Shown here piece by piece: positions 6,440 through 34,541 of a DNA stretch of 64,000 bases. The notes below the pieces were generated by a model. That model did not search any database. It had not been told where the DNA came from and worked only from the letters and a program-made list of their open reading frames with translations. This DNA comes from Anaerocolumna cellulosilytica. GTDB taxonomy: Bacteria > Bacillota > Clostridia > Lachnospirales > Lachnospiraceae. Made by a program: the position numbers and the translations under genes. Numbering within the stretch: position 1 is the stretch's first letter; each line of letters starts with the position of its first letter. The stretch is from contig NZ_AP023367.1 in NCBI RefSeq assembly GCF_014218335.1, positions 1,179,501-1,243,500 on the forward strand, read 5' to 3'.

Positions 6440-6530
6440 GGAAAGGGTGCCAGAACAGAATGGCCTGAACAGGCGCTTAATGGCGGTAACACCTTTAAAG
6501 ACAAGTGTGTTACATAAAGGTATTATTATG
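6440..6530 (+). promoter_or_regulatory. Structured leader element, copy A (shared with three other genes)
   Basis: The 5' box GAAAGGG (6441-6447) precedes stem 1, TGCCA (6448-6452) with TGGCG (6481-6485), which holds an inner hairpin GCCT/AGGC. One spacer base separates it from stem 2, TAACAC (6487-6492) with GTGTTA (6507-6512). Stem 2 has a mismatch, three inner pairs TTT/AAG and a six-base loop. The start codon at 6528 lies 15 bases beyond stem 2. Same geometry as the copies at 20.03, 30.91 and 34.45 kb. No match to a riboswitch family I can recall. Confidence 0.7.
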
Positions 6531-8903
6531 AAGAAAAAATTATGGCTGATGGGAATTTGTATCATTATACTATCCCTTATATTCATAGGAAATATATACA
6601 AGCAGATAACGGGAGACGGGAACGGGAAAAGTGATGATTATATCTACCGGGAAGAAACAATGTTAACGGTAGAAGAAGCGGAAGGCTTGCTAAAATATTT
6701 GGGAATTGGCCAGGGAGAATTAAAGTTTGAAAAAGGAGAAGAATATCTGACTTTTTTACAGGGGAAAAAGGGATTAGACCTTCTTGCTAATAAATATAAA
6801 TTCGATGTTGAAGCAGTTAAGAGTAAATTATCCTTTGACTTTTCAACAGTGCCAGAGAATAAGATAATGCTTATAGAAGAATTTATGAATTTATATGAAG
6901 GTGTAATAAAGGCATTGCCTGAGAATGAAAAGGTTGTAGAGCTAAAAGAGCTATATGTATTAGGAATAAATGAGTCAGAACAGGAAGAAAGGCTGCCTCT
7001 GCTAATAACAGACCAGGGAGTGTTTAGCTATTTAACTCTATATGGTGATAAAAAGGTTGCAAAGGATTTTAAATCCTACGTAGATAGTAAGCTAGAGGTC
7101 TTTATAAAAGGGAGTGAAATCCTGTACATAAAAGGAGTACTTAATGAGACAACCACCCTTCATAATGTCTTTATAACCAATGGTTCTGACAGCACTGTAT
7201 CTGTTTTTTTAAACGGGATAGAAAGGGATTTCGAAACAAAATATAAGCTGTCCCAAAACATTGAAGAGGTAGTGGCAGATATTGTAATTCAGGATAAAAG
7301 GATTATCAAGGTTAGTCTGAAACCGGATACCATCGGAGGAAAAGTACTTGTAGCAAATGAAAAGTATATTGAAATAGAAGGTTATGGCAAGGTAAATTTA
7401 GATAACTATTACAGAATCTACAAAGTATATGGTGATTTATCCATGGAAGTAACGAATGGAATACTGGTAGGTTATAAGGCGACTGACTTTGTAGTAGCAG
7501 ATGGAAAGATTGTGGCAGCTTTAATTAAAGAGCCGATAACAGCTGAAAATATCCGGGTTTTAATCAAAACAGATAACTTTAAAAGTCTGTTCCATGAAAA
7601 GGTTCAATTTACATCGGATAAGCCTTTTACCATTACTGCCGGAGATACAACCAAAAGCTACAAGGCAGGAGAAAAAATAACAATCAAGCCAACCAATAAA
7701 CTGTTAAAGAAGGGGCGGCTTCGAATTGAAAGCAGTTCAGAAAATGCAAAATTTCAAGTACTGTCCGTAGCCAGATCCGATAATACACCGGCGTATCGTG
7801 GGGTACTAGAGATTGCACTGGAAGACGAAGGGCTGACATTGATTAATGAATTATCGATTGAAGAGTATCTGTATGCGGTCATTCCAAGCGAGATGCCGAC
7901 TTACTATGGTTTAGAGCCCTTAAAAGTACAGGCAATCTGTGCTAGAAGTTATGCTTATAACCAATTACTGGCCAATAGTTACAGCCGGTATGGTGCCCAT
8001 GTTGATGACAGTGTAAGTTATCAGGTTTACAATAATATACCAGAGAATGAGGACAGTATTTTGGCTGTTAAGGATACCTTTGGTAAAGTCATGCGCTATG
8101 AGAATCAGGTGATAACAGCTTATTATTTTTCCACCTCCTATGGTCACACGGCTTCTATAAAAGAGGTTTGGGGTGGAAGTGGGGATATAAATTATCTTAT
8201 AGGAAAGTTACAGACCGTATACAGCGTGAATCATCAGGACTCTTTTAAAACTTCCGATGATGAAACTATGCCGGTTTCAAATAACACTTCGCAGGAAGTG
8301 GACTTATCCACAGATAAGGCTTTTCGCAACTTTTTGAAAAATGATAAAATAAAAACCTACGACAGCGAATTTGCTTGGTATCGCTGGTCGGTTACCATTG
8401 CAAAAGAGGATTTAAAAAAATCTATAGACAAAAGCCTGGCTTCACGGTATCAGGCAAACCCGGCGCTAATTCAGACCTTAACGGGCGGAAGTGTTGATTC
8501 CAAACCTCAGTACGAGAGTAAACCAGTCAATACCATTGGGAATATTGTGGATATAAAGGTTGGAAAAAGAGAAAAGAGCGGTATTCTTTCTGAACTTATA
8601 TTAATTGGCAGTGATTGCACCATAAAAGTCCAGACAGAGTATAATATTAGAACACTTCTTGCACCCCTTTTTGATGATGTCGTTCGTCAGGATGAGAGTA
8701 CAGCTTCCGGATTATCCATGCTGCCAAGTGCATATTTTGTAATGGATAAGAAAAAAGGCAGTATTGTATTTCAAGGCGGTGGGTATGGACACGGAGTTGG
8801 TATGAGCCAGAATGGAGTAAAGGCAATGGCAGATTCCGGTAAAAGTTATGAGGAAATCTTAAAACATTATTATACTGGGGTAGAAATCAGCATTATTTAC
8901 TAG
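6528..8903 (+). CDS. SpoIID/LytB-domain membrane-anchored cell-wall protein
   Basis: About 791 residues. An N-terminal anchor helix (LWLMGICIIILSLIFIGN) is followed by a long beta-rich region without a family I recognise. The last half carries the SpoIID domain: IEEYLYAVIPSEMP, then LKVQAICARSYAYNQL, and near the end GGGYGHGVGMSQNGVKAMA and YEEILKHYYTGV. SpoIID is a lytic transglycosylase acting on peptidoglycan during engulfment. This protein is more than twice its length and lies outside a sporulation operon, so a vegetative wall role is equally possible. I use ATG 6528; the reading frame stays open upstream, through the leader element. Its 3' end overlaps the converging yihY-like gene by 11 bases. 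Confidence 0.88.
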   Translation: MKKKLWLMGICIIILSLIFIGNIYKQITGDGNGKSDDYIYREETMLTVEEAEGLLKYLGIGQGELKFEKGEEYLTFLQGKKGLDLLANKYKFDVEAVKSKLSFDFSTVPENKIMLIEEFMNLYEGVIKALPENEKVVELKELYVLGINESEQEERLPLLITDQGVFSYLTLYGDKKVAKDFKSYVDSKLEVFIKGSEILYIKGVLNETTTLHNVFITNGSDSTVSVFLNGIERDFETKYKLSQNIEEVVADIVIQDKRIIKVSLKPDTIGGKVLVANEKYIEIEGYGKVNLDNYYRIYKVYGDLSMEVTNGILVGYKATDFVVADGKIVAALIKEPITAENIRVLIKTDNFKSLFHEKVQFTSDKPFTITAGDTTKSYKAGEKITIKPTNKLLKKGRLRIESSSENAKFQVLSVARSDNTPAYRGVLEIALEDEGLTLINELSIEEYLYAVIPSEMPTYYGLEPLKVQAICARSYAYNQLLANSYSRYGAHVDDSVSYQVYNNIPENEDSILAVKDTFGKVMRYENQVITAYYFSTSYGHTASIKEVWGGSGDINYLIGKLQTVYSVNHQDSFKTSDDETMPVSNNTSQEVDLSTDKAFRNFLKNDKIKTYDSEFAWYRWSVTIAKEDLKKSIDKSLASRYQANPALIQTLTGGSVDSKPQYESKPVNTIGNIVDIKVGKREKSGILSELILIGSDCTIKVQTEYNIRTLLAPLFDDVVRQDESTASGLSMLPSAYFVMDKKKGSIVFQGGGYGHGVGMSQNGVKAMADSGKSYEEILKHYYTGVEISIIY

Positions 8904-9825
8904 CTGTTGTATCCTCAGAATCCTGCTTAATAGCAGTGGCACGTATCTTTTGACGTCTCTTGTAATCCTTTCGGTGGCGGAGTAAATATTTTAAATAATA
9001 AACTAAGTCACCGGAGGATAGAACCACATTAATTTCACCGCCGATAAAGAGAATATACATGATAAAGTAAAACCACAACATAAAAAGAACAATGGCAGTC
9101 AGGCTTCCGTAAGTATTGGAATAATTACTCATATTATCAATATAGAAGGAATACAGGTAAGAAAATCCCATCCATCCGGCAGCACAAAGCAGAGCACCGG
9201 GAAGTTCTTTTAAAGCTCTGGTGTTGCGGTTAGGTATAATAGTATAGAGCATTACGAAAAAAACAGTTAAGATTAAAAGCCCAGCAATAGTACGAATACT
9301 AATAATTACAAGAGCTAAGTCACTTAAAATTGGTATTTTGCTTTCAATCCAAATATATAGTTGGTTACCAAATACTAAGATTATCATAGTAATAATCAGC
9401 ATAACGGCGAGTACAAAAGTATATACAGATGATAAAAAGCGGAGTTTGAAGTAGTTGCGGCTCTCTTTTATTCCATAAACAGCATTCAGCCCCTTTATAA
9501 TAGACAGTACGCCTTTAGAAGCTGACCATAATGCAGAGATTGCAGTGACAGATATAATAGTGCCGGAAGCTTTATCAAATATTTCTTTTACAATACCTAT
9601 AATTAATGAATTAACACTGGCGGGAAATATTTGTGTTAGTGTGGTAAGCAGTGTGTTTTCTGTGATAGGAAGGTACTGTACTAAGGTTAGCAGCAGCATA
9701 AAAAACGGAAAGAAAGAGATAATGACAAAAAAAGCCGCATGAGCAGAGAAAGCGGATACATTGTCATCCCGAACCTTTCGGTTAAAAGCTTGTATTATTT
9801 TATAAAGGGATAAAATCAAATTCAT
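8893..9825 (-). CDS. YihY/virulence factor BrkB family membrane protein
   Basis: A 310-residue protein with about six membrane helices and the family hallmarks: an amphipathic start, HAAFFVIISFFPFFMLLL in the first span, ALWSASKGVLSIIKGLNAVYGI in the loop, and YGSLTAIVLFMLWFYFIMYILFIGGEIN near the end. The function of the family (once miscalled RNase BN) is not established. The C-terminal tail is basic. SD AGAGG lies before ATG 9825. It converges on the SpoIID-like gene with overlapping ends, so the two transcripts may interfere. Confidence 0.93.
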   Translation of the reverse strand: MNLILSLYKIIQAFNRKVRDDNVSAFSAHAAFFVIISFFPFFMLLLTLVQYLPITENTLLTTLTQIFPASVNSLIIGIVKEIFDKASGTIISVTAISALWSASKGVLSIIKGLNAVYGIKESRNYFKLRFLSSVYTFVLAVMLIITMIILVFGNQLYIWIESKIPILSDLALVIISIRTIAGLLILTVFFVMLYTIIPNRNTRALKELPGALLCAAGWMGFSYLYSFYIDNMSNYSNTYGSLTAIVLFMLWFYFIMYILFIGGEINVVLSSGDLVYYLKYLLRHRKDYKRRQKIRATAIKQDSEDTTASK

Positions 9826-10282
9826 AAATTGCCTCTTTTATTTTTATTATATGCCTCAGATGCCCTGCTTAGTCCAGCGCAGGGGTGTTCCTTTCTATTA
9901 TACCACGATATGGAATATATGTATACAAACTAGAAGGCATTTCCTAGGTTGCTGCCAATTAGGAAAGCTATTATGCTTATGGAGAACTAGGAATCTGAAG
10001 AAAAAGTGAATGTAAAAAAGTCACAGTAAATCCATATTGACGGAGGCATAAAATTGTGATACTGTTTCTGTGTAATATTCTGTCGAAGCAATGTTATGCC
10101 AAATACGATACTTATAAACGACTATAGGTCCAACGTGTAAATATAAGAACTGAAAGGGCCAGGTAAATAAAATTGAGGGAGGTTTTAGACTGTGGCATAT
10201 TATGTGTTGCAGTTTTTTGTTTACAAGATATCTATTGAATGCTAAGTATTGGAATTCAATCATGGACAAAGGAGAGAAATTT
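9826..10282. other. Intergenic region between divergent yihY-like and chemoreceptor genes
   Basis: About 460 bases with promoters for both directions expected but no clear consensus pair. A T-rich stretch near 10210 and short partial inverted repeats are visible. A segment at about 10151-10200 contains GAAAGGGCCA and TGTGGCA, faintly like the four-copy leader element, but it lacks the second stem and lies too far from the start codon. No convincing gene. Confidence 0.4.
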
Positions 10283-12007
10283 ATGAACATCTTAAGTAAA
10301 CTAAAAATCAGAACCAAACTTACTATCCTTATTGCTACTTTAATGGTTGGTATACTCTGCGTTGGATTAGCAGGATTGTTCTATAACCAGAAATCTAATA
10401 AGGCAATGAAAACGCTTTATGAGGACAACCTTGTTATAGTGCAAATGCTAAGTGACGTAAGAAATTATACCAGAGTTAACTTTGCAAATGTATTAAAATT
10501 AATGACCTCCACAGATGCACAATATCAAAAGAAAACGTTGGAGGATATTTCAGTAAGGGATAAGACCATTACTACAAACCTTGAGGAATATGGTAAGTCA
10601 GAGCTTGATGAATTTGAGCAGGAGCTTTTCAGCAGAGTCATGGGAAAATACATGGACTGGACAACGGTATCCGGAGAAATCTTAAACTATGTGCAGGCTG
10701 GCAATAGTACGGAAGCTTTAAACCTTTTTAAGTCTAAGGGCGAAGTTGTTTTTGAAGATATGCAAAACGACATTAAAGAACTGGCAAATTATAATGTCAA
10801 TCAGTCCTCGGATACTTTTACAACTAGTGAGAATGATGCCAGAGATTCTTTTAACATTCTTTTTATTGTAGTAGCAGCAGTAGCAGTTATAGGGTCATCT
10901 TTAGGATTAGCCATTGCTTACAGTATCACTAAGCCAATCAAACTTTTGGTGGGTGCGATTAATAATACTTCTGAATTGAATTTAAGAAACGATAACACAC
11001 TCGAATCCCTTAAGAAATACAAAGGGGAAATCGGGATTATGGCCGGGTCAGTTATGAAGATGCAGGAAGCACTTCGAAATACCATCATAACATTATCAAA
11101 TATAGCTAACAGTCTTTCCACAAGTGCAGAAGAACTATCATCCTCTACTGAAGAAAATTCAAAGACCGTTCATCAGGTAGTAACGGCAATTAATGAAATA
11201 GCAGAAGGAAATGGAAGTCAGGCGGAAATGGTATCAAGTACCAGTGCTACAATGACAGCGGTTTCAAAGAGTATAGATGAAGTAAACAAAGCAATTCTCA
11301 CGAATTCCGAAAACTCACAGTATTCATTAAAAATTGTTGAGAAGGGACAGAAGGCCGTCGATGTAACCAGTGGCAAGATGAAAGAAAATATTATGGTTAC
11401 CGGTGAAGTTTATGATTCCATACAGGAGCTAACAGAGTATATGTTACAGGTAAGCAACATCACTCAACTAATTAATGAAATAGCCTCTCAGACGAATTTA
11501 TTAGCACTAAATGCAGCCATTGAGGCAGCAAGAGCTGGCGAAGCAGGAAAAGGTTTTTCTGTAGTGGCGGAGGAAATTAGAAAATTGGCGGAACAATCTT
11601 CCGGAGCAGTACAGGAAATTTCAGCTATTATTAATAATACTGTTATAAAAAATAAGACAGCCTCTGAAAAGATAGACCAAGTTAAAGTCATTGTCTCCGA
11701 GCAGGAGAAGGTATTAGATACAACCAGAGTCGTATTCGAACAAATAAAGAAGTCTGTTGAGAATATAGCGGAACAAGCGGAATATTCAGCAGGCCTTTTA
11801 AGTACCATTGACGAAGATTCCAAGAATATAGCTGCTCAGACGCAGGACATGGCAGCAGTTGCTGAGGAATCAGCTGCAAGTTCAGAGGAAATATCAGCTT
11901 CTAGTGAGGAGCAGTTGGCAACTATAGAAATGATTGCCCAGGCATCGGGTGATTTAGCTGAGCTGGCGACACAATTAAAGGGAGAAATCAAACGGTTTAC
12001 ATTGTAA
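10283..12007 (+). CDS. Methyl-accepting chemotaxis protein, transmembrane
   Basis: A 574-residue chemoreceptor. TM1 is at about residues 10-33; an extracellular four-helix-bundle sensor (4HB_MCP-like) follows to about 190; TM2 is at about 195-217; then comes a HAMP segment ([15 protein letters not shown]). The long cytoplasmic coiled coil has the conserved hairpin tip [22 protein letters not shown]. The start is ATG 10283 with SD AAAGGAGA; an earlier ATG in frame would add a non-hydrophobic stretch and lacks an SD. It signals to CheA/CheW, which are not in this window. Ligand unknown. Confidence 0.95.
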
Positions 12008-12036
12008 ATTACATCTATAAAATTGAAAACTTTATC

Positions 12037-12064
12037 TTGACAACAGATAATAGTATGCTACAAT
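12037..12064 (+). promoter_or_regulatory. Promoter of the pheST T-box transcript
   Basis: TTGACA (12037-12042) and TACAAT (12059-12064) are 16 bases apart, just upstream of the T-box leader. Confidence 0.8.
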
Positions 12065-12071
12065 GTAGTTA

Positions 12072-12411
12072 CATATGAAAATAAACAAAGGCTATGAAGG
12101 TGTTATGCTGTGCAGTATATGTTCAGCAGACAGATAATTATTTCCTGTCAGAGAGAGGAAGTCACCGGCTGAAAGCTTCCTTAAGTTCAGATAATTATTG
12201 ATATTCCCACTGGAGCCGCATCTTTGAACCATACAGTAGGAGATGACGTATCTTGCACGTTACGCATGACTTTAAGTGCTTATATAAATCTTATTTTTAT
12301 GATTTGTATAAGAATTAGGGTGGTACCGCGGAATTAACAGTACTTTATAAAGTAACTGTATTATCTTATGATATTTACTCCGTCCCTGTATTTTGCAGGG
12401 ACGGTTTTTTT
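12072..12411 (+). promoter_or_regulatory. T-box leader (tRNA-Phe sensing) with terminator, upstream of pheS
   Basis: The T-box sequence AGGGTGGTACCGCG is at 12317-12330. Stem I distal elements AGAGAGG and CCGGCTGAAAG are at about 12150-12175. TTC at 12186-12188, on the 3' side of stem I, is the likely specifier, matching tRNA-Phe. The terminator stem CCGTCCCTG/CAGGGACGG with a T run ends at 12411. Uncharged tRNA-Phe would stabilise the antiterminator and allow pheST transcription. Confidence 0.92.
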
Positions 12412-12475
12412 GTGCTTAAATGCCTGGTTCCTGCAAATGTATCGTTTTTATTGCACAAAAAGAAAGGAGAATTCC

Positions 12476-13495
12476 ATGAAAGAAAAATTAAAGGCTATAG
12501 TGGATGAAGCGCTTGATAAAATAAAAGCTTCACAGGAGTTGGAAAGCTTATATGATATCAGAGTGCAGTTTTTAGGAAAAAAGGGTGCACTTACGGAAAT
12601 CTTAAAATCTATGAAGGATGTAGCACCGGAGGACAGACCGGCAGTAGGGCAGTTAGTGAATGAAGCCAGAACCACACTGGAAGGTAAACTGGAGGAAATG
12701 AAAGAGCTTTTTGAGAAAAAGCTTAGGGAAGAACAGATTCGTAAGGAAACAATTGATGTTACCTTACCAGCAAAAAAAACAATCGTAGGACACCGCCACC
12801 CAAACAGCATTGCTTTAGAAGAAGTGGAACGAATCTTCGTAGGTATGGGGTATGAAGTAGTGGAGGGTCCTGAAATAGAATATGACTACTACAATTTCGA
12901 AGCGTTAAACATACCGGCGAATCATCCGGCTAAGGATGAACAGGATACTTTTTATATCAATGAGAACATTGTGCTTAGAACTCAGACTTCACCGGTACAG
13001 GTAAGAGTTATGGAACAGGGAAAGTTACCTATCCGTATGATTGCGCCGGGAAGAGTATTCCGTTCCGATGAAGTGGATGCTACACACTCACCAAGCTTTC
13101 ACCAGATAGAAGGTCTCGTAATTGATAAGAATATAACCTTTGCTGATTTAAAAGGTACCCTTGCAGAATTTGCAAAACAGCTCTTTGGAGAAGATGCAAA
13201 AGTAAAATTTAGGCCTCATCATTTCCCCTTCACAGAACCAAGTGCGGAAGTGGATGTAACCTGCTTTAAATGTGGGGGAGAAGGCTGTAGATTTTGTAAA
13301 GGTACCGGTTGGATTGAAATTCTAGGTTGCGGAATGGTTCATCCTAATGTGCTCCGTATGAGTGGAATTGATCCTGAGGAGTATACCGGCTTTGCTTTCG
13401 GTGTAGGTCTGGAACGTATTGCTTTGTTAAAATACGAAATTGACGATATGAGATTATTATATGAGAATGACGTTCGTTTCTTAAAACAATTCTAG
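12476..13495 (+). CDS. pheS: Phenylalanine--tRNA ligase alpha subunit
   Basis: A 339-residue class II aminoacyl-tRNA synthetase alpha chain. The N-terminal coiled coil (about 1-85) is followed by the catalytic core: [14 protein letters not shown], then DTFYI and [10 protein letters not shown] (motif 2 region), the [15 protein letters not shown] motif, and the C-terminal motif 3 [14 protein letters not shown]. Length is typical. ATG 12476 has SD AAAGGAGA; the longer frame upstream runs into the T-box terminator. It forms an alpha2-beta2 enzyme with the next gene's product and is controlled by the T-box. Confidence 0.98.
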
Positions 13496-13588
13496 AGAAA
13501 GTAAGATTTCAGATCGAAATGGATTAACATTAAGAAGCAGGCAGGTAAGCTGTCAGCCGAATAGAAATAAAACAGGAGGTTTCATGGA

Positions 13589-16027: not shown

Positions 16028-16035
16028 AAAAGAGA

Positions 16036-16075
16036 AACTGCAACCTAAGAAAAAAGACAGGGTTGCAGTTTTTTT
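16036..16075 (+). terminator. Terminator of pheST
   Basis: AACTGCAACC/GGTTGCAGTT, a ten-pair stem, followed by seven T. Confidence 0.92.
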
Positions 16076-16207
16076 ACAGTTAGAGTTAGATGTCTATTAT
16101 AGGCTTCCTATGTACGAACTGATATATGTTATATATAATATGGCAGAACTGGTATTTAATGAAAATGTAATAAATATTTAGCAATTATAGAAGGTTTAGA
16201 CAAATTT

Positions 16208-19944: not shown

Positions 19945-20021
19945 TGTTCTGAAAATATGCAGAGAACCTACTTTTACTTGTAAGTGTAAATAGCACTAGT
20001 ACACGCAGATGGGAGTAAAAT

Positions 20022-20093
20022 ATGAAAAGAAAGGATGCCGCAGGCGAAATAACTGCCTTGGCAATAATATCTGGCGGAGATGTTATCGGGTGA
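20022..20093 (+). CDS. Possible leader peptide before the M29-like aminopeptidase
   Basis: ATG 20022 sits six bases after GGGAG and opens 23 codons (MKRKDAAGEITALAIISGGD, then VIG) ending at TGA 20091, eight bases before the GTG start of the next gene. The frame runs across the structured element at 20029-20103, so its translation would unfold that element. The other element copies do not keep this frame, so it may be fortuitous. Confidence 0.35.
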   Translation: MKRKDAAGEITALAIISGGDVIG

Positions 20094-20103
20094 GATTAAA
20101 GTG
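20029..20103 (+). promoter_or_regulatory. Structured leader element, copy D (divergent)
   Basis: GAAAGGA (20029-20035), stem 1 TGCC (20036-20039) with GGCA (20060-20063) enclosing AGGC/GCCT, one spacer base, then stem 2 TAATAT-C (20065-20071) with G-ATGTTA (20079-20085) and a seven-base loop. The GTG start is 15 bases beyond stem 2, matching the other copies. Compared with them, the C-G pairs of stem 2 become T-G and T-A, which preserves pairing. Confidence 0.6.
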
Positions 20104-22805: not shown

Positions 22806-22809
22806 TAAC

Positions 22810-24322: not shown

Positions 24323-24823
24323 TTTAAACTCCAATCTGTGTGCTTAAGCACACGTATAAATCAAGATGTTGAAAAAAGCTTTTATTTTTCAACCTTACAC
24401 TCATACCTTTCTATTTATAGTATAATTACTCTTATCTTTGTAGTTCTATCATTTATAATCTATTCAATTTATATGATATAGAGTAATTAATACGGGAGTT
24501 ACTAATAATTGCCACATTCAGGAAGCTGTTTCTATCTACTAAATATTTTCTAATAACATGACATATTATACAAATATACTATATAATTGTAAATAATAAA
24601 ATGTAATCTTTTATATTTGCAGTAGTTTTTGGACTATCCTGTATCAATGCCAATTACTTATATAAAAAACTTATAGGTACTAAAGTCTTATTAATCTCCC
24701 TTATAAACACCATAAGAAAATAATAAAACTAAAAATAAGACAAAAGCAAGTGTATTATGATAAAATAAATAGTATATAAATTGCTGATTTTACAAGGTTA
24801 ATTTTAATCAAGGAGGACTTACC
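24323..24823. other. AT-rich intergenic region between divergent DUF512 and purM
   Basis: About 500 bases, very AT-rich, without a credible gene. It must hold both promoters. ACTAATAATT and many TATAAT-like words are present, but no -35/-10 pair stands out. I looked for a purine riboswitch and for PurR boxes before purM and see neither. SD AAGGAGG precedes ATG 24824. Confidence 0.5.
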
Positions 24824-25849: not shown

Positions 25850-26469
25850 AGCTGGGTGTTTTAGTGTCCGGAGGAGGAACTAACTTTCAGGCTATCCTTG
25901 ATAGGCTTTCAGACGGTGCAATTACAAATACAGAGGTTGCTGTGGTAATCAGCAGTAAAAAAGATGTCTATGCAATCGAACGTGCAAAGAAACACAAGAT
26001 TCCATCCGTGGTGCTTACCCCTAAGGATTTTAAGGATAGAAGTGAGTTTCACCAGACACTTTTAAGTACAGTAAATGAATACCAAGTAGACTTAATTGTA
26101 CTTGCAGGTTATCTGGTAATTCTTCCGGAAATTCTTATAAAAGAATACCGGAATCGGATTATTAATATTCACCCCTCCTTAATTCCTGCTTTTTGCGGAG
26201 CCGGCTTTTATGGACTGAAAGTTCATGAAGCTGTACTAAAAAGAGGAGTAAAGCTAACTGGTGCCACGGTACATTTTGTAGACGAAGGTACGGATACCGG
26301 ACCCATACTTTTGCAAAAGGCAGTAGAAGTGAAAGCCGGTGATACACCGGAATTATTGCAGCAGAGGGTAATGGAAGAGGCGGAATGGAGCCTTTTACCA
26401 AAGGCCATAGATTTGATTGCAAATGGTAAGGTTAGAGTTGAAAATAATCGTAGTATCATAGAAGAATAA
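25843..26469 (+). CDS. purN: Phosphoribosylglycinamide formyltransferase
   Basis: A 208-residue GART/Pur[15 protein letters not shown] at the N-terminus, the catalytic [13 protein letters not shown] with Asn and His, and [14 protein letters not shown] carrying the catalytic Asp. It formylates GAR with 10-formyl-THF. It starts inside purM and ends 28 bases before purD. Confidence 0.98.
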
Positions 26470-26497
26470 GTCTGAAGGAAAGGGCAGGGGTATTTGT

Positions 26498-27769
26498 ATG
26501 AGAGTCTTAATCATAGGAGGCGGCGGAAGAGAACATGCTATAGCCGCTAAAGTGGCACAAAGCAGCAGAGTTAAGGAAATCTTTTGTGCACCTGGCAATG
26601 CCGGAATTAATAAATATGCAAATTGTGTAGATATCGGGGTAATGGAATTTCAAAAACTGGCTGAATTTGCAGAAAAGAAGCAGATTGACTTGACCATCGT
26701 AGGACCGGATGACCCATTGGTGGCAGGTATTGTTGATATATTTGAAGCTAAGAATCTCAAAGTATTTGGACCCAGGAAAAAGGCAGCGATATTAGAAGGT
26801 TCCAAAGCTTTTTCAAAAGATATTATGAAAAAATATAATATACCTACGGCTGCCTATGAAACCTTTGACTCACCGGAGGAAGCTGTCGCATATCTTTCTG
26901 AATGTGCCTATCCTATTGTTTTAAAAGCAGATGGATTGGCTCTTGGAAAAGGTGTACTTATATGTAATACCTATGAAGAAGCAAAAGCTGGAGTAAGAAC
27001 TATAATGTTAGACAAACAGTTTGGTTCTGCCGGAGATAAGTTAGTAATTGAGGAATTTATGAGAGGGCGTGAAGTATCCGTATTAGCGTTTTGTGATGGC
27101 ACGGACATAGCTGTGATGACCAGTGCCCAGGACCATAAGCGTGCGAAGGATGGAGATCAGGGATTAAATACAGGTGGTATGGGAACCTTTTCGCCCAGTC
27201 CTTTTTATACAGAAGAAGTACATGCATTTTGTTTGGAGCAGCTATACAAACCAACTATGAAAGCAATGCAGGCAGAAGGAAGAGACTTTACCGGAATATT
27301 ATTTTTTGGATTAATGTTAACCGAAAAAGGCCCCAAGGTTTTAGAATATAATGCGAGATTTGGAGATCCGGAAACACAGGTAGTACTTCCACGAATGAAA
27401 AACGATATTATCGATGTAATGGAAGCTTGTATAGAGGGAAGACTAAAAGAGATAACCCTGGAATTTGAAGATAATGCGGCTGTGTGTGTTATTTTGGCAT
27501 CAGCAGGTTATCCGGAACATTATGAAAAAGGTTATCTTATTAATGGGTTGGATAGGATAAAGACGGAAGATGGCTGCTACGCCTTCCATGCGGGCACGAA
27601 GCAGACAGAGGAAGGAATCGTAACGAATGGAGGCAGAGTTCTTGGAATTACTGCAACCGGCAGTAACCTAAAGGAAGCCAGAAAGAAAGCCTATGAAGCT
27701 GTTTCGTTAATAGATTATAAGAATAAATACATGAGAAATGATATCGGCAAAGCGATAGATGAAGCTTAG
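26498..27769 (+). CDS. purD: Phosphoribosylamine--glycine ligase (GAR synthetase)
   Basis: A 423-residue ATP-grasp ligase. The N-terminal domain begins MRVLIIGGGGREHAIA and includes CAPGNAGI; the ATP-grasp portion contains KADGLALGKGV, VIEEFMRGREVSV, SAQDHKRAKDGDQGLNTGGMG, and the metal-binding EYNARFGDPETQ. It joins glycine to phosphoribosylamine. It is the last gene of purMND, with a strong terminator after it. Confidence 0.98.
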   Translation: MRVLIIGGGGREHAIAAKVAQSSRVKEIFCAPGNAGINKYANCVDIGVMEFQKLAEFAEKKQIDLTIVGPDDPLVAGIVDIFEAKNLKVFGPRKKAAILEGSKAFSKDIMKKYNIPTAAYETFDSPEEAVAYLSECAYPIVLKADGLALGKGVLICNTYEEAKAGVRTIMLDKQFGSAGDKLVIEEFMRGREVSVLAFCDGTDIAVMTSAQDHKRAKDGDQGLNTGGMGTFSPSPFYTEEVHAFCLEQLYKPTMKAMQAEGRDFTGILFFGLMLTEKGPKVLEYNARFGDPETQVVLPRMKNDIIDVMEACIEGRLKEITLEFEDNAAVCVILASAGYPEHYEKGYLINGLDRIKTEDGCYAFHAGTKQTEEGIVTNGGRVLGITATGSNLKEARKKAYEAVSLIDYKNKYMRNDIGKAIDEA

Positions 27770-27792
27770 ACTTCAATAACTTTGGAATATGG

Positions 27793-27840
27793 AAATAAGG
27801 AGTACTTTTGGCAAGGCATGTCCAAAGTACTCCTTATTTT
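27793..27840 (+). terminator. Terminator of purMND
   Basis: AAATAAGGAGTACTTT and AAAGTACTCCTTATTTT form a 16-pair stem around a loop of about 15 bases. Confidence 0.92.
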
Positions 27841-28116
27841 GGAATGAAATCATTATTTATATTACTTAATTACTCCATACAATTCCAATATTAACAATAC
27901 TATCTGATAGACTACTATTTTTAGGGAAAAAATTTCATAAGATACCTCCGATGTCACAGAAGTGCCATATGTATTATGTAGGATTATGTAAAAATACAAA
28001 TATTTTCATGAAGATAAATATTCAGAAACTAAAATAAAGATTCATAAGACCAAGAAAAAAGGCAACAGGATATACTTATACCCACGCGTTGGGTTTCGTT
28101 TAGGAGGAAATACGGA
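27841..28116. other. AT-rich gap with a small hairpin before the SH3/glucosaminidase gene
   Basis: No gene. ACCCA/TGGGT (about 28081-28096) makes a five-pair hairpin just upstream of SD TAGGAGG. AAGGCAAC near 28058 recalls the opening of a c-di-GMP-I riboswitch, but the remaining conserved parts are missing. Confidence 0.4.
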
Positions 28117-30807
28117 ATGAAAAAAAATACATATTATAAGTGGCTTGCAGTCCTATTGTGTATCATGATAGTCTGGCCGCAGGTTTTTAAGTCAGGCATA
28201 ACTACAGTGGATGCTGCTGCCACGGGGACGGTTACAGCTACCAGTTTAAACATACGATCCGGACCTGCCACTACCTATGAAAGGGTACAGGTTAATGGGA
28301 ATTATACCTCACTAAAGAAAGGCGATAAGGTTACTATCGTAAGTGAAAAGAGCGGTTGGTACAAAATATCTTTTACCGTAAATGGTAAAAAAACCGAAGG
28401 CTATGTTATGGCTGATTATATAAAAAAAGCAAGTGTTACCCCCACTCCTACGGCTAAACCGACTGTTAAACCTACAGCGACTCCGACTGTTACTAAAAAG
28501 CCCACATCGTCCTCTACTATCAGTCAGGATGATTTTAAAGAACCGGGGACAGTAAATGCAACCAGTTTAAATGTCAGAAAGACACCCGCTACCACAGGAA
28601 CCAGACTTGGTGCATTAAAGAATAAGCAGAAGGTAACAGTATTAAATGAGGTATTTGTCGGTGGTCAGAAGTGGTATAGAATTTCATTTACCTTGAATAA
28701 AAAGGCCCAGACGGGTTACGTATTAAGTGATTACATAAAGCTAACCATATCCTCCTACATTATGGGTTATGTAAACAGCACTACCAGTATGAAGGTGCAA
28801 ACCGTTGCAGGTTCTAAATCCGCATATGTAAAGACAAAAGCTGGTAAGGTAATAAGTCTACCTAATAAACGTGCTGTAAAAATTACACAAGAAGTTACAG
28901 ATAATAAAGGCGTGAAATGGCTTGGAGTATCTTTTACAATAAGCGGAGTAAAGTATAATGGATATCTCCCGGCAAATAAAGTGCTTATTAAAAAAGTTGT
29001 GGTTACTCCGACACCAACAAAGGCTCCTACTCAAGCAGTGACCCCTAGCTTAACCCCTAGTATTACCCCAACAGCGAGTCCTGCTCCAACAGCAAGTATT
29101 ACTCCAACAGCAAGCCCTGCCCCAACAGCAACTCCACAGGTAACGCCTACAGTAACTCCGGCAGGTTATGTCAGAGAGGTAAATCAGAATACAGAAGCTA
29201 CCATTCAGTATGCATCTAAAATAAACGTGTATTCTGAAGTAGTGAATAACTCGACGATACTCATCGATACCTCATATAATCCGATTTTACTTTCCATGGA
29301 TGAGAAGGTTATTGTTAGTAAAACAATAAGGAATAACCTGGATGCATGGTATTATGTAACCTTTAAAAAAGGCGCCAATACCATAAGTGGTTATGTACAG
29401 ACGCAGTATGTAGTTTTTGGTACTGGTGGTTTTGAAGATACGACAGCGGTTTTCCCTATTGCCAGTGTAACACCTAATCCAACAGGCTCAGTAACACCAT
29501 CGCCAACAACGGTTGGAACAATGAACGATGGACAATTTGAGGCTTATTTAACCAATCAGGGGTTCCCGGAGAGTTATAAGCCTTACCTTCGAAATCTTCA
29601 TAAACAATACCCTGCTTGGATATTTGAAGCATATCAAACAGGTTTGGATTGGAATACAGTAATCGCGAAACAAAATGTTTTAGGAAAGAATTTAATTTCC
29701 AATGGAAAAAGTGTTGAATGGAAATCTCTTGATACAGGAGCCTATAGTTGGACGACTGATTCATTTATTCCTTTTGATGGTTCAACCTGGGTAACTGCTT
29801 CCAAAGAAGCATTAGAATATTACATAGATCCTAGAAATTTCCTTACAGAAAAGTCTATATTTCAATTCGAAATGCTTACCTATAAGGGACAGTATCAGAA
29901 TGGAACAGGTGTAGAAAGTATATTATATAATACTCCTTTATATAATAAATCCTTCACTTATAAAGAGGATACAGGAAAATCAACAACAATATCTTATTCC
30001 CAGTCCTTTGTTGACGCCGCCGTATATTCCGGTGTAAGCCCCTATCATCTAGCTACCAGGGTAAAGCAGGAGGTGGTTACAGGAACCTCCACCTTAAGTT
30101 CCAGTGTTAGCGGAACGGTAGCAGGTCTGGAAGGCTTATATAATTTCTATAATATTGGAGCATATCATAGTACAGCAGCAGGTGGTGCCATTGCAAATGC
30201 TCTGAAATACGCAAGGAATGGAACAACCAGTGCGGAGTTGAATACACTTTACCGAATACCATGGGACAACCCTTATGATTCTATTGTAGGTGGTGCCTAT
30301 ATTATTGGAAGCAATTACATAAAACGTGGGCAGGACACCATTTACCTGCAAAAATTTAATGTTACGCCTGTTTCAACTCATACGCATCAGTATATGGCAA
30401 ATATAGAAGCACCGAATGCAGAAGGGGCAAAAACCTACGCAGCTTATACAGGGATGACAAATGTACCGATTGTTTTTTCTATTCCGGTTTACAGCAATAT
30501 GCCGGCTGTATCAGCACCTATACCGGTGAAAAAATACAATCCGAATAACTGGCTGAAAACTTTAACAATAGACGGCTACAGTTTAACACCGACCTTTGAT
30601 TTATCCAAGGAACAGTTTTATTCCTTAATTGTAGAAAATGCAGTTAGCAGTATTAATGTGAGAGCAACAGCAGTCAGTACAAAAGCTACCGTAGCAGGTG
30701 TGGGGACAATACCATTGCAGGTAGGAAATAATGCAGTTACATTAACTGTAACAGCAGAAAATGGTGATGTTCGTCAATATCAGATAAATGTAGTAAGAGA
30801 AAATTAA
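28117..30807 (+). CDS. Secreted N-acetylglucosaminidase with bacterial SH3 repeats and cadherin-like C-terminus
   Basis: An 896-residue exported wall hydrolase. The signal peptide ends near VDAAA (about residue 35). SH3-like repeats lie at about 36-105 (TATSLNIRSGPATTYERV) and 145-210 (NATSLNVRKTPATTGTRL), and two more divergent ones at about 215-295 and 355-440. They are separated by P/T-rich linkers (for example TPSLTPSITPTASPAPT). A LytD-type glucosaminidase domain (about 480-770) includes YAAVYSGVSPYHLATRVKQE-like sequence and WDNPYDSIVGGAYIIG. The last 100 residues are a cadherin-like beta sandwich (LKTLTIDGYSLTPTFD). SH3 domains probably bind peptidoglycan stems. Likely a cell-separation or wall-turnover autolysin. 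Confidence 0.9.
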   Translation: MKKNTYYKWLAVLLCIMIVWPQVFKSGITTVDAAATGTVTATSLNIRSGPATTYERVQVNGNYTSLKKGDKVTIVSEKSGWYKISFTVNGKKTEGYVMADYIKKASVTPTPTAKPTVKPTATPTVTKKPTSSSTISQDDFKEPGTVNATSLNVRKTPATTGTRLGALKNKQKVTVLNEVFVGGQKWYRISFTLNKKAQTGYVLSDYIKLTISSYIMGYVNSTTSMKVQTVAGSKSAYVKTKAGKVISLPNKRAVKITQEVTDNKGVKWLGVSFTISGVKYNGYLPANKVLIKKVVVTPTPTKAPTQAVTPSLTPSITPTASPAPTASITPTASPAPTATPQVTPTVTPAGYVREVNQNTEATIQYASKINVYSEVVNNSTILIDTSYNPILLSMDEKVIVSKTIRNNLDAWYYVTFKKGANTISGYVQTQYVVFGTGGFEDTTAVFPIASVTPNPTGSVTPSPTTVGTMNDGQFEAYLTNQGFPESYKPYLRNLHKQYPAWIFEAYQTGLDWNTVIAKQNVLGKNLISNGKSVEWKSLDTGAYSWTTDSFIPFDGSTWVTASKEALEYYIDPRNFLTEKSIFQFEMLTYKGQYQNGTGVESILYNTPLYNKSFTYKEDTGKSTTISYSQSFVDAAVYSGVSPYHLATRVKQEVVTGTSTLSSSVSGTVAGLEGLYNFYNIGAYHSTAAGGAIANALKYARNGTTSAELNTLYRIPWDNPYDSIVGGAYIIGSNYIKRGQDTIYLQKFNVTPVSTHTHQYMANIEAPNAEGAKTYAAYTGMTNVPIVFSIPVYSNMPAVSAPIPVKKYNPNNWLKTLTIDGYSLTPTFDLSKEQFYSLIVENAVSSINVRATAVSTKATVAGVGTIPLQVGNNAVTLTVTAENGDVRQYQINVVREN

Positions 30808-30816
30808 AAAGATAGG

Positions 30817-30894
30817 ACCTGGTTAAAACAAATTTCCCGGCATATGGTATGAATATGAAAATGGGTGAGTATTACAGTTTTAATCAGGTTTTTT
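30817..30894 (+). terminator. Terminator of the glucosaminidase gene
   Basis: ACCTGGTTAAAAC and GTTTTAATCAGGT, a 13-pair stem with a long loop, then six T. TTATAT just downstream (about 30898-30904) may be the -10 of the next gene. Confidence 0.8.
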
Positions 30895-30906
30895 AAATTT
30901 TATATA

Positions 30907-30987
30907 GAAAGGAATGCCACACTTAATACTTTTTTGTGGTAGTAACACATTCGTAAGCGGATGTGTTACATTAGGGTAGATTTTATG
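30907..30987 (+). promoter_or_regulatory. Structured leader element, copy B
   Basis: GAAAGGAA (30907-30914); stem 1 TGCCACA (30915-30921) with TGTGGTA (30935-30941); one spacer base; stem 2 TAACAC-A-TTC, six-base loop, GGA-T-GTGTTA (30943-30968). ATG 30985 is 16 bases beyond. The loop bases CTTAAT (30922-30927) can pair with ATTAGG (30970-30975), which contains the SD. A -10-like TTATAT lies just before the element, so it probably begins at or near the transcript 5' end. Confidence 0.72.
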
Positions 30988-32250
30988 AGGATGAATTTAA
31001 AAAAATACAAAAGCTATGCAGCAGCTATTTTATGTATGATTATGGTGTTAATACCGGTTATGGGCAGCCAGGCAGCCAGTGTGACTATAACACTTACCAC
31101 AAAGAATGAAAGACTTAAAGTAGGGGAAGAAATTATTGTAAATCTAAAGTTGTCCTCACAGGAAAAAGTGGGAGACTTTCAGGGCTATGTAACATATAAT
31201 GCTGATATACTAGAATTTGTCAGCGAATTAGATTTTATAGCCGGCGGAGAAGGACTTGTCAAAATAACAGATACGAATGTAGCAGTTGGAGATTCCAGCC
31301 GAAAATATACATTAAAGTTCATTGCTAAAAAACTTGGAACAAGTGAAATTGCATTAAAAGATTTAACTGATATTTTTGAATTTGAATCCGGTGAGACTAT
31401 GTCAGTATCCAGTAACCAACTCACCATTCAAGTAGAAGCAAAAGAAGCTGCATCAAACAATGCGGCGGTTAAAAGTTTAAAAATAAATCCCGGAAAACTC
31501 GAACCGGAATTTAACAAAGATGAATACAACTATACAACGAAAGTAGATAATAATACAAAGCAGTTAATTGTCAGTGCGGAAACGGAAGATGAAAAAGCAA
31601 CTGTTTCAATAACTGGTAATGAAGCATTAAAAGAAGGTAATAATACGATTAAAATCGTTGTTAAATCGGAAGCCGGAAATGAAAAAGTTTATACAATAAC
31701 TGCTTATCGGGAGGAAGATTTTAAGGAAAATGGGGAGAATACAAAAGAAGAAACTCAAGAAACTGAAGAAGAAAGTAATGATACAAAATCTATTAATGAA
31801 ATGACAGCTTCAATAGATAGTCTAAAAGTATATGCAGACGATAAGGAAACCTATATTCAGAATGGTTTTCGCTACCATATCATAGAGGTTGCGGAGGATG
31901 TCACAATACCAGATGGCTATGAAAGGACTACTTTGCAATTGAATGGCATTGCAGTAACTGTGTACACTCTGAAAAATAATTTAGAAAGTGATTTCCTTCT
32001 AATATATGCAGAAAATATAGAGGGTGAAAAAGGTTTCTACCAATATGACCGAAAGGAAGAGACGATACAGAGGTTTATAAAGAGCAAGAGTAATAATACA
32101 GTGGTTATGGATAGTGATTTGATAAAATCAGAAGAATATAAGTCAAGAATTACTACTATGGGAATTGTAACAGCAATCCTTGGGGCTGGCTGTATGATAC
32201 TGTCAGTAGCACTCTTAAGGGTATATTTAGGGAAAAAAGACAAACAGTAA
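30985..32250 (+). CDS. Cohesin-like and cadherin-like membrane-anchored surface protein
   Basis: About 421 residues. A signal sequence (SYAAAILCMIMVLIPVMGSQAAS) precedes a cohesin-like beta sandwich at about 30-145 (LKVGEEIIVNLKLSS, GDFQGYVTYNADILEFVS). A cadherin-like domain at about 160-240 (LKINPGKLEPEFNKDEYNYTTKV) matches the fold at the end of the preceding glucosaminidase. Then come an acidic linker, a further domain, and a C-terminal helix (GIVTAILGAGCMILSVALL) ending in KKDKQ. One cohesin-like unit without other cellulosomal parts suggests an adhesion or scaffold role. I use ATG 30985; ATG 30991 is possible. Confidence 0.8.
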   Translation: MRMNLKKYKSYAAAILCMIMVLIPVMGSQAASVTITLTTKNERLKVGEEIIVNLKLSSQEKVGDFQGYVTYNADILEFVSELDFIAGGEGLVKITDTNVAVGDSSRKYTLKFIAKKLGTSEIALKDLTDIFEFESGETMSVSSNQLTIQVEAKEAASNNAAVKSLKINPGKLEPEFNKDEYNYTTKVDNNTKQLIVSAETEDEKATVSITGNEALKEGNNTIKIVVKSEAGNEKVYTITAYREEDFKENGENTKEETQETEEESNDTKSINEMTASIDSLKVYADDKETYIQNGFRYHIIEVAEDVTIPDGYERTTLQLNGIAVTVYTLKNNLESDFLLIYAENIEGEKGFYQYDRKEETIQRFIKSKSNNTVVMDSDLIKSEEYKSRITTMGIVTAILGAGCMILSVALLRVYLGKKDKQ

Positions 32251-32257
32251 GAAGGAC

Positions 32258-32296
32258 TTGACACATGATAAAAACTGTTATAGTATATATATAACA
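32258..32296 (+). promoter_or_regulatory. Promoter and palindrome upstream of gntR-mcsA-mcsB
   Basis: TTGACA (32258-32263), 17-base spacer, TAGTAT (32281-32286). TGTTATA (32276-32282) and TATAACA (32290-32296) form an inverted repeat over the -10, a likely site for the GntR product. No CtsR heptamer (GGTCAAA) is present here. Confidence 0.7.
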
Positions 32297-32327
32297 AATA
32301 TAACGAACAATTTAGGAGGTGGATGAT

Positions 32328-32711
32328 TTGATTGTAACTATCGATTTTAATAGTGATGAAGCTTTCTATATTCAGCTATGCAACCAGATTATATTTGGAA
32401 TTGCAAATGCGGAATTCAGGGAAGGCGACAATCTTCCTTCTGTTCGGGAATTAGCTGATAATATTGGAATTAACATGCACACAGTAAATAAGGCATATAC
32501 TATCTTAAAGCAGGAAGGTTACGTAAAATTAGACCGTAGAAAGGGTGCGGTAATTGCCATAAATGCTGATAAATATAAAGCCATGGAAACCTTAATGAAT
32601 GAAATGAGAGTAGTATTGGCGAAGGCTGTTTGCAAAAATATAAGTTGTGAGGAAGTTCATGATATTGTAGATGCAATATTCCGTGACTTCTGTACAATGG
32701 AGGATAAATAG
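32328..32711 (+). CDS. GntR-family (YtrA-type) transcriptional regulator
   Basis: About 127 residues: an N-terminal winged helix (YIQLCNQIIFGIANAEFREGDNLPS, VRELADNIGINMHTVNKAYTIL) and a short C-terminal tail of about 50 residues, as in YtrA-like GntR regulators. TTG 32328 is eight bases after AGGAGG; GTG 32319 would overlap that SD. It occupies the slot of ctsR at the head of an mcsA-mcsB-clpC cluster. The palindrome over its own -10 suggests autoregulation; whether it controls heat-shock genes is inference. Confidence 0.9.
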   Translation: MIVTIDFNSDEAFYIQLCNQIIFGIANAEFREGDNLPSVRELADNIGINMHTVNKAYTILKQEGYVKLDRRKGAVIAINADKYKAMETLMNEMRVVLAKAVCKNISCEEVHDIVDAIFRDFCTMEDK

Positions 32712-32746
32712 TAACCGTTGTTATCTTAAACTAGGAGGTAGTTACT

Positions 32747-33292
32747 ATGTTATGTGATAAATGCAAAAAAAACGAAGCTAAGATATACTACACAGAAATA
32801 ATCAATGGGGAAAAGAAGGAACAGCATTTATGCGAAGACTGTGCCATGGAGTATTCTTCCTTTCAAATGGGGACACCGTTTATGAATCAGGAAATAACTC
32901 TAGGCAATTTATTGTCCACAATTCTTGGTAATTATTATAAAGAAAACAGTCATAGTGGAGAACATGCAGAAAAAGAACTCCATTGTAAAGGGTGCGGCAT
33001 GACCTATTCAGAATTTTTAAAAGAGGGCAGATTTGGTTGTGTTAAGTGTTACGATACTTTTAAGAAGGTGCTTGAAAAGAGCATAAAAAGTATTCAGGGC
33101 TCTGATACCCATACCGGTAAGAAACCAAAAGGGTTTGAAACTAAGACAGAAAAACTTGTGAAGGAACTTCCGGAATTAGATAAATTGGCAATAAAATTAC
33201 AGGATGCCATTGAAAAAGAAGAATTTGAAGAAGCGGTTAAGATTAGAGATAGGATACGTGAATTAAAAAAGGAGGAGATGAACAATGCTTAA
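32747..33292 (+). CDS. mcsA: McsA, activator of the McsB arginine kinase (zinc-finger/UVR protein)
   Basis: A 181-residue protein. It opens with MLCDKCKKNEA and LCEDCA, a first zinc-binding CxxC pair; CKGCGMTYSEF and FGCVKCYDTF form a second. The C-terminus is a UVR motif (LQDAIEKEEFEEAVKIRDRIRELK). In Bacillus McsA activates McsB and modulates the ClpC system. It overlaps mcsB by eight bases. Confidence 0.95.
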   Translation: MLCDKCKKNEAKIYYTEIINGEKKEQHLCEDCAMEYSSFQMGTPFMNQEITLGNLLSTILGNYYKENSHSGEHAEKELHCKGCGMTYSEFLKEGRFGCVKCYDTFKKVLEKSIKSIQGSDTHTGKKPKGFETKTEKLVKELPELDKLAIKLQDAIEKEEFEEAVKIRDRIRELKKEEMNNA

Positions 33293-34319
33293 GTGGTATA
33301 AAGAAGCAGGAAACAACAGCGATGTTATTATCTCCAGCCGTGTGAGGCTAGCAAGAAATCTAAAGGCATATCCCTTCTCAGCCAAGCTTTCTGAGAATCA
33401 GGCAAAGGAAATGGTAACGAAAGTAAAAGATGCTGGCTTACATCTTCAGGAAAAGGAAGAAAAGAAATATTATAGCTGTAATGTGGATATGCTTTCAGAT
33501 ACTGAAAAAACCGCAATGATGGAGCGTCATATAATCAGCCCGTTATTGATTGCCAAAGAACAAAGTACCGGTCTTATCTTGTCCGAAGATGAAAAAATAA
33601 GTATTATGATTAATGAAGAGGATCATATACGGATTCAATCTATAGTAGGCGGCATGAATATGACAGAAGCTTTTTATCTAGCTAATACGGCAGATGACAT
33701 TACCAGCGAATTATTTGATTATGCGTTTCATGAAAAATACGGCTATCTTACATCCTGTCCTACTAATTTAGGTACGGGTTTAAGGGCCTCTTATATGATG
33801 TTTTTGCCGGCACTGACAGTAGCGGGAAAAGTAATTAAACTTGCAGAAGAGCTTGGTCAATATGGAATTGCACTAAGAGGAACCTATGGAGAGGCATCTA
33901 AAAGTCTTGGAAGCCTGTATCAAATATCTAACCAAAAAACCCTCGGCAGTACGGAAAAGGAGATTATGGATAGTTTAAACCGTATAGTTGAACAGGTTAT
34001 GAAGCAGGAGCGCAGGCAAAGAGAGTATATCCTTACGAACGGTTATGATGAATTTGAAGATAAAGTATACCGCTCTTATGGTGTATTAAAGTATGCGAAA
34101 CAATTGTCTTCCGGTGATGCCATGACTCTGTTGGCACAACTAAAACTGGGAGCAGACTTAGCACTTTTAAAGTTCAAGGATAATTACAATATTCATGAGC
34201 TGATGATGGAGATTCAACCAGCGAACTTACAATGCCAGCTTGATAAAAACATCGGAAGCGTTCAAAGAGATAAATATAGAGCTGACTATATTCGCAAAAA
34301 ATTACCGGATATTCAATAA
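33285..34319 (+). CDS. mcsB: Protein-arginine kinase McsB
   Basis: A 344-residue ATP:guanido phosphotransferase fold: SSRVRLARNLKAYPF near the N-terminus (nucleotide-binding arginines) and CPTNLGTGLRASYMMFLPAL with the catalytic-loop Cys. It phosphorylates arginines on misfolded proteins or repressors, tagging them for ClpC-ClpP. It starts inside mcsA. Confidence 0.97.
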   Translation: MLKWYKEAGNNSDVIISSRVRLARNLKAYPFSAKLSENQAKEMVTKVKDAGLHLQEKEEKKYYSCNVDMLSDTEKTAMMERHIISPLLIAKEQSTGLILSEDEKISIMINEEDHIRIQSIVGGMNMTEAFYLANTADDITSELFDYAFHEKYGYLTSCPTNLGTGLRASYMMFLPALTVAGKVIKLAEELGQYGIALRGTYGEASKSLGSLYQISNQKTLGSTEKEIMDSLNRIVEQVMKQERRQREYILTNGYDEFEDKVYRSYGVLKYAKQLSSGDAMTLLAQLKLGADLALLKFKDNYNIHELMMEIQPANLQCQLDKNIGSVQRDKYRADYIRKKLPDIQ

Positions 34320-34451
34320 TAATTAGATAAATAGAATTAAAAGCCCAGGTGTATGCTTTCATTATCTGAATAGAATATTAATTTCTATTTGAGCTATATT
34401 GCAGTAAATGTGCATGCAAGGTGATTTAGTGTGAAGGAAAATTATATAAAA

Positions 34452-34541
34452 GAAAGGAATGCCACATTGTGCTTCTTTCACACCTTTATTTGTGGCAGTA
34501 ACACATCTAATAACAGACGTGTTATAAGGGGTAGATATATG
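34452..34541 (+). promoter_or_regulatory. Structured leader element, copy C, directly before clpC
   Basis: GAAAGGAA (34452-34459); stem 1 TGCCACA (34460-34466) with TGTGGCA (34491-34497); one spacer base; stem 2 TAACAC-a-TCT, six-base loop, AGA-c-GTGTTA (34499-34524). ATG 34539 is 14 bases beyond. CCTTTAT in loop 1 (34483-34489) can form seven pairs with ATAAGGG (34524-34530), the SD. TATATAAA before the box may be a -10. The first 130 bases of the mcsB-clpC gap hold nothing else recognisable. Confidence 0.72.

Follow-up and report, generated by a model that had tools for sequence, protein, structure and literature searches.

A short, folded and probably mobile element positioned before start codons in Anaerocolumna

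Copies of the element in the window and in related genomes

The DNA analyzed here is a stretch of 64,000 nucleotides from Anaerocolumna cellulosilytica (contig NZ_AP023367.1, positions 1,179,501 to 1,243,500 of the forward strand), referred to below as the window. It contains copies of a base-paired element of ~106-112 bp, here called family I, that is dispersed in Anaerocolumna and lies just in front of start codons. An earlier note on this stretch had described four copies, A to D, as one structured leader shared by unrelated genes. The letters are as described at all four places, and A, B, and C are real copies with a stem 2 of 26 bases, as the note had it. Membership of copy D in family I is doubtful: both stems are there, as is a GGGTGAGATTAAA-GTG tail, but the covariance model R2 gives it an E-value of only 0.031, and inspection revealed no counterpart of the helix P0 described below. 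By eye, a 24-codon open reading frame (ORF; 20022-20093) spans copy D and stops just short of the M29-peptidase start, and the stems of this copy may be partly coding sequence.

The motif GAAAGGN0-3TGCC occurs five times in the window, against 0.47 expected, with one match (6987) lying inside a gene. Covariance model R1, built from 32 hand-picked copies (A1), gave own-genome E-values of 6.0e-17 for C, 1.0e-8 for B, and 1.2e-6 for A, and copy D was not among its 147 own-genome matches at E<=1. Model R2, run unfiltered on the window, returned 9.5e-14, 4.8e-7, and 1.6e-4 for C, B, and A. The seeds of both models include A, B, and C, so these scores arise partly by construction, and the case for a family is carried by covariation and by the other copies. 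One of these is a fifth family I copy in the window, which the earlier note had overlooked (Table 1). Single-sequence fold z values (C -1.2, B -4.1, A -1.5, D -1.8) are weak evidence.

Table 1. Features of the two repeat families in the window and the genes next to them
Feature	Position	Strand	Remarks
Copy A, family I	6421..6527	+	Precedes SpoIID-domain gene, ATG 6528; SpoIID profile 7.7e-23
Copy D, doubtful degenerate family I	20001..20095	+	R2 E 0.031; M29-peptidase gene next
Family II tail match	20004..20019	+	Directly upstream of copy D
M29-peptidase gene after copy D	Start GTG 20101 or ATG 20080	+	Peptidase_M29 profile 8.4e-14
Copy B, family I	30887..30984	+	Precedes Cadherin-like-domain gene, ATG 30985; profile 6.9e-11
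Shine-Dalgarno-like word AAGGTGA left of copy C	34418..34424	+	Read as displaced native Shine-Dalgarno sequence
Copy C, family I, best in window	34429..34538	+	Precedes clpC-like Clp ATPase gene, ATG 34539
Copy C, P0	34429-34439/34473-34483	+	
Copy C, P1	34460-34465/34492-34497	+	
Copy C, P2	34499-34524	+	
Copy C, tail	34525-34538	+	
Probable family II copy	39255..39317	+	Tail 2 mismatches; precedes MCP-signal-domain gene, ATG 39320
Fifth family I copy	45515-45619 or 45522..45619	+	R1 E 2.6e-5, R2 7.8e-8; family II copy directly after
Family II copy	45622..45685	+	Tail 2 mismatches; between fifth family I copy and start codon 45688

Across the 5.43 Mb own genome, R1 found at least 147 matches at E<=1, a lower bound since 150 candidates were scored; a gapped pattern gave 13 own-genome matches and none in a reversed control. 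Searches of more than 40 genomes used stricter filters and scored few candidates (61 per genome with R1 in 60 relatives, nine per genome with R2), so the following counts are lower bounds. Among the 60 relatives, R1 matched in all 14 genomes of the same genus, with at least 2-61 matches each, and in one of the 46 outside it. R2 matched in at least 13 of 397 genomes of the family, three of them from the same genus (own genome included) and ten from other genera; among 391 genomes of the class, the own genome alone matched. An exact pattern retrieved 40 stretches from Anaerocolumna species, Clostridium sp. KNHs205, and two Clostridiales metagenome-assembled genomes. An IMG/VR contig carries one copy and an adjoining weaker one (L262:289-493; E 0.0023), so phage or prophage DNA can also harbor family I units.

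Individual copies are in part identical. In genome G010, eight of 25 exact 51-base 5' halves have the same sequence and lie at seven separate places, two of them adjoining in an array, and one further 5' half differs by a single base. Species also tend toward their own predominant sequence of hairpin P2 (by eye, uncounted).

The earlier note matched the shape to no riboswitch family, which agrees with our Rfam 15 scans of the window and of copy C. At gathering thresholds the whole window yielded tRNA only, and at E<=10 copy C gave two minus-strand matches at chance level (E 1.3 and 8.6) and nothing relevant. A search of the open-access literature, subscription papers being outside its scope, returned no description of the element.

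A covarying pseudoknot and hairpin

Family I begins with a helix that the earlier note had missed. This helix, P0 (GGTTGAAAGAA/TTCTTTCAACC), starts at the 5' end of the element, and because the loop of stem 1 (P1, TGCCAC/GTGGCA) contains the 3' strand of P0, the two helices together form an H-type pseudoknot. Hairpin P2, the stem 2 of the earlier description, follows on the 3' side. In copy A, P0 may be TAAGCG/CGCTTA (by eye), and in copy B it is not evident.

The fold was evaluated on 108 own-genome copies, the distinct ones of 122 matches over 100 sources and thus not all 147 places, and on 75 copies from other genomes (the distinct ones of 84 matches over 100 sources). In the own-genome set, 86.6% of cells pair, compared with 36-46% in slid controls, covariation reaches 0.308 against 0.05-0.08, and two-sided changes occur in 26 of the 28 pairs. 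The other-genome set is 94.8% paired (slid 38-48%) with a covariation of 0.250 (slid 0.04-0.06), and RNAalifold predicts P1 and P2 from it, pseudoknots being outside its reach. When the alignment is fitted to P1 and P2 and not to P0, P0 by itself is 84.5% paired against 41-53% in slid controls, with a covariation of 0.266 against 0.06-0.10. Since P0 crosses P1 and covaries, the fold is real. The earlier preference for a folded nucleic acid over a DNA-binding site is borne out by these values, and covariation extends well beyond the four copies from which it had been proposed.

The kind of mismatch is in line with folding of the sense strand. Own-genome stems contain 83 A-C mismatches where shuffled ones have 179, and 206 G-T against 273; a depletion of A-C exceeding that of G-T is expected if the sense strand folds. 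L091 and L121 are orthologous and differ in P2 by compensated changes, which suggests, from these two sequences, upkeep of the fold at one site; L121, which is preceded by another unit, could instead have arisen by an insertion of its own.

More distant relatives vary the plan. L126 keeps it with new letters (GTTAGAAGAA/TTCTTCTAAC), and in G168 P1 has moved (TGCCCA/TGGGCA, by eye). Short forms of 77-79 nt (G144, G301, G079, G188) have a plain left hairpin without TGCCAC. Short relatives of this length with a Shine-Dalgarno-like tail occur in other Lachnospiraceae genera (L268, L269, L276, L277, L283, L270, L278, L284, L271), in tandem in L268 and L269. L171, L165, L172, and L185 carry an extra insert between the 3' strands of P0 and P1, marking a site that tolerates inserts. 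In the ptsH leaders L191 and L192, we observed a miniature GAAAGG-stem-stem-start arrangement, AGAAAGGCCGC..GCGGGCATAGT..ACTATG, without P0.

Two readings of the structure were rejected. The word GAAAGGATG resembles a Shine-Dalgarno sequence with ATG and could have opened a leader peptide; copies vary at the ATG (GGGTG in A, GGACTG in L006) and differ in frame (by eye). Sequestration of the Shine-Dalgarno sequence by the fold was suggested by single folds (L118 and one copy of family II, introduced below) in which the tail pairs with upstream sequence, and a partition-function test found no excess.

Position, empty sites, and arrays

Family I units stand in sense directly before start codons. 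By a lax criterion that also returns an ORF start at 999 of 2160 random places (359 within 11 nt), a script located a start downstream of 98 of the 108 own-genome copies, at most 11 nt from the model end in 93 cases; on the antisense side it did so for eight (two within 11 nt). In other genomes, a start was found for 69 of the 75 copies (65 within 11 nt), compared with three (one) on the antisense side. The ten own-genome misses, inspected by eye, comprise five with an ATG just downstream, two with an ATG inside the modeled end, and three followed by a family II copy and then ATG. None of the 108 copies read is placed away from a start codon. Thus, the further copies at gene starts for which the earlier note had suggested a covariance-model search do exist.

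On the other side of the unit, base composition is near background within ~5 nt. In copies from other genomes, Shine-Dalgarno (SD) words are in excess there: 52 of 75 have one of at least 4 nt in the 22 nt directly left of the unit, compared with 21-37 in six control windows (72-75 copies); for words of at least 5 nt the figures are 24 and 3-15. When the flanks are joined as if the unit were absent, the SD-to-ATG spacing is 5-9 nt in 34 of 45 cases. The same operation on copy C leaves a spacing of 7 between AAGGTGA and ATG. The constant distance to the start, which the earlier note had taken as a sign of translational control, follows from the insertion site.

Orthologues with and without the unit are consistent with this position. 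Our comparison skipped apparent-element matches, matches starting after residue 6, and those above 97% identity, and as many rows were paralogues, conclusions rest on named pairs only, among the matches listed. The ptsI gene carries a unit in G005 and lacks it in G003 (81% identity over 150 residues), with 22 nt before the unit and 15 nt from the ATG identical. For ptsH, named by its GIHARPAG-type motif, G010 reads GAGGAGATTAA-unit-ATG, and the unit-free G008 and G006 read AAGGAGATTGGAAAAATG and AAGGAGAATAAAAAATG. The gltX gene has a unit in G000, which is absent from ten of the 11 relatives whose start was read; the eleventh, G009, has a degenerate match ~50 nt upstream. NCBIfam confirms the names ptsI and gltX for the own-genome proteins. 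In the own genome, ptsH and ptsI are neighbors and have one family I copy each (L170:277-385, 676-789).

Units have sharp ends, as is evident from arrays. Within an array, each unit starts with GGTTGAAAG or a variant of it, ends in GTAA(A) or GTTA, and is followed without a gap by its neighbor; L141, L142, L143, and L144 contain head-to-tail arrays of 3, 5, 2, and 2 units, with the first L142 unit degenerate. No terminal inverted repeats were seen by eye at the ends of array units. Among G010 copies, left flanks vary and the tail is constant, judged by eye, and a short A-rich target-site duplication (2-3 nt) may be present all the same.

Four family I copies (L067, L071, L174, and window 45515) run into a unit of ~63 bp that is itself followed by ATG. 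This unit, family II, has the consensus-like sequence GGTTGAATAAAAGATATTCAACCCCTTGATTTGTACGCGACCAAAGGTCGCAGATGGGAGCTAA, and its tail has 92 own-genome matches at up to two mismatches and none in a reversed control. Family II also forms a triple array with 62-63 bp spacing (C1:3153797-3153937). Among the best 30 of the 92 tail matches, an ATG lies at most 4 nt from the tail in 27, at most 10 nt in two, and is missing in L314; ten of the 30, without a clear left part, were left out of alignment A4. The three tail matches in the window (20004, 39302, 45670), also passed over in the earlier note, compare with 0.88 expected, and since five of 100 shuffles reach three, this is not significant in the window alone. 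A possible third family, seen as a tail only (GCCGC..GCGGCATGTCTGAAA or similar), is present in the left flanks of L091, L300, L302, and L115.

A mobile element and its alternatives

Sharp-ended units, the covarying fold, the position before start codons, the excess of SD words to the left in other genomes, presence and absence among orthologues, identical copies at separate places, arrays, and the second family at the same site are direct observations. Together they make it probable that the copies represent a short non-autonomous mobile element that inserts on the sense strand between SD sequence and start codon, its movement being what we infer from them. We file the element in the class of small interspersed repeats, outside any named family. 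In the mechanism that we propose, the insertion machinery would recognize an SD sequence plus spacer, and the tail of each insertion (GCAATGGGTGTAAA in Anaerocolumna, GCAGGAGGTATAA in short relatives, AGATGGGAGCTAA in family II) would act as a new ribosome-binding site (RBS), so that expression of the gene would survive. The tail would also rebuild a fresh target next to the ATG, which would account for the head-to-tail arrays, and the bypassed old SD sequence would decay. Mobility, continued function of the new leader, or both may require the fold.

The element resembles the pneumococcal BOX, RUP, and SPRITE repeats and miniature inverted-repeat transposable elements (MITEs) in being short, non-coding, base-paired, present in many copies per genome, and presumably moved in trans. 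The pneumococcal repeats, however, are enriched in the gaps of convergent gene pairs, and MITEs are bounded by terminal inverted repeats and duplicate their target (PMC3049150), whereas the Anaerocolumna element stands in sense just before start codons and has a pseudoknot and an RBS-like tail of its own.

Several points weigh against the proposed insertion between SD sequence and start codon. R1 was seeded from gene-start copies, and the 75 other-genome copies were picked by exact consensus pattern or best score, which favors intact copies. One control window reaches 37 of 75 for SD words of at least 4 nt, and some left flanks in this set are the tail of another copy. In the own genome, whose copies are more diverged, 39 of 108 have an SD word of 4 nt or more, which is no excess over controls (25-38); the excess is weak at 5 nt or more (20 against 6-11), and joining the flanks gives a spacing of 5-9 nt for only 11 of 34 copies. 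Judging from these sequences, decay of the bypassed SD with age may explain the weak signal; many own-genome copies could instead have landed elsewhere than at an SD sequence. The SD of the empty ptsI allele (AGAGG) is not intact in the left flank of the filled G005 allele. Short relatives keep the word GGTGGCAG without its P1 partner, so pairing in P1 is not the full reason for the conservation of this word. Units could, moreover, have been copied by gene conversion or recombination. Finally, no transposase, reverse transcriptase, or ORF-carrying version was found or linked to the element, the sole search being one with exact halves in G010, where among 25 5' and 21 3' halves no pair at a distance of 0.3-3 kb stood out (by eye; such patterns miss variants).

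One possible alternative, although we lean against it, is a single-strand-DNA element comparable to IS200/IS605 or REPIN, with a Y1 transposase doing the cutting and joining. IS200/IS605 palindrome-associated elements and REP/REPIN-RAYT systems have subterminal hairpins and no inverted terminal repeats, and both of our families likewise consist of a left hairpin, a right hairpin, and a short tail, and inspection by eye showed neither long inverted repeats at the termini nor an obvious duplication of the target. P1 could be a left-right pairing in single-stranded DNA, and the short relatives barely exceed two hairpins. Unlike in those groups, the left hairpin begins at the very terminus and the target resembles SD plus spacer instead of a fixed tetranucleotide; moreover, the copies read share the sense orientation, and no Y1 transposase has been tied to the element, such transposases not having been searched for.

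We consider it unlikely that the element is a cis-regulatory RNA, i.e., a riboswitch or protein-binding leader whose pseudoknot binds a ligand or protein to control translation of the next gene. A covarying structure beside the RBS is shared with riboswitches and other Rfam leaders, and the covarying pseudoknot and hairpin, the stronger depletion of A-C mismatches, and the compensated P2 changes in L091/L121 would fit such a leader. However, the ~98 downstream genes have no evident common theme, judged by reading names and without an enrichment test; they include a tRNA synthetase, phosphotransferase system (PTS) components, a Clp ATPase (profiles Clp_N, AAA_2, and ClpB_D2-small after copy C), amino-acid synthesis, transport, and regulators, with profile checks covering ptsI, gltX, and six window genes. 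Nor does the tail RBS appear to be buried: nested folds show no excess over shuffled upstream sequence in a partition function that does not model pseudoknots (other genomes p 0.12; own genome 0.06, in the opposite direction; family II 0.92). Because there is no gene theme, units are absent from orthologues, identical copies recur in one genome, units form arrays, and they sit between SD and start, ligand or protein control, offered by the earlier note as the reason for the architecture, is unsupported. A related arrangement is known from the T4 gene 38 leader, in which a hairpin separates SD and AUG and initiation relies on the upstream SD, whereas the tail of the Anaerocolumna element appears to replace that SD.

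Least probable is untargeted insertion followed by selection, in which a repeat lands anywhere and is kept only beside start codons for its RBS: an RBS-like tail would make such copies tolerable and the own genome retains units where the SD excess is gone, yet harmless sites such as convergent gaps, antisense positions, or places upstream of the SD should then fill too, as with BOX, RUP, and SPRITE (PMC3049150), and none of the 108 own-genome copies read lies away from a start, even though five of the 98 starts located by script lie at a distance of 17-57 nt.

Beyond insertion of a mobile element between SD and start codon, we can imagine, as a speculation with low odds of being right, a superfamily of mobile elements with RNA structure whose address is the translation-initiation signal itself. 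Its apparatus would read an SD sequence set at constant spacing from the AUG, possibly while the 30S subunit holds the mRNA and with reverse transcription to follow, or by means of an anti-SD-like guide. Insertions would rebuild both RBS and target, thereby turning into exchangeable translation leaders on well over a hundred genes per genome.

The own genome has at least 147 family I places (E<=1) and 92 family II tail matches, which partly overlap. If the proposed mode of insertion is true, landing between SD and AUG with an RBS-like tail of its own would be a new way for a mobile element to spare its host. The element matters for the annotation of start sites, for the evolution of leaders, and for translation control in Lachnospiraceae.

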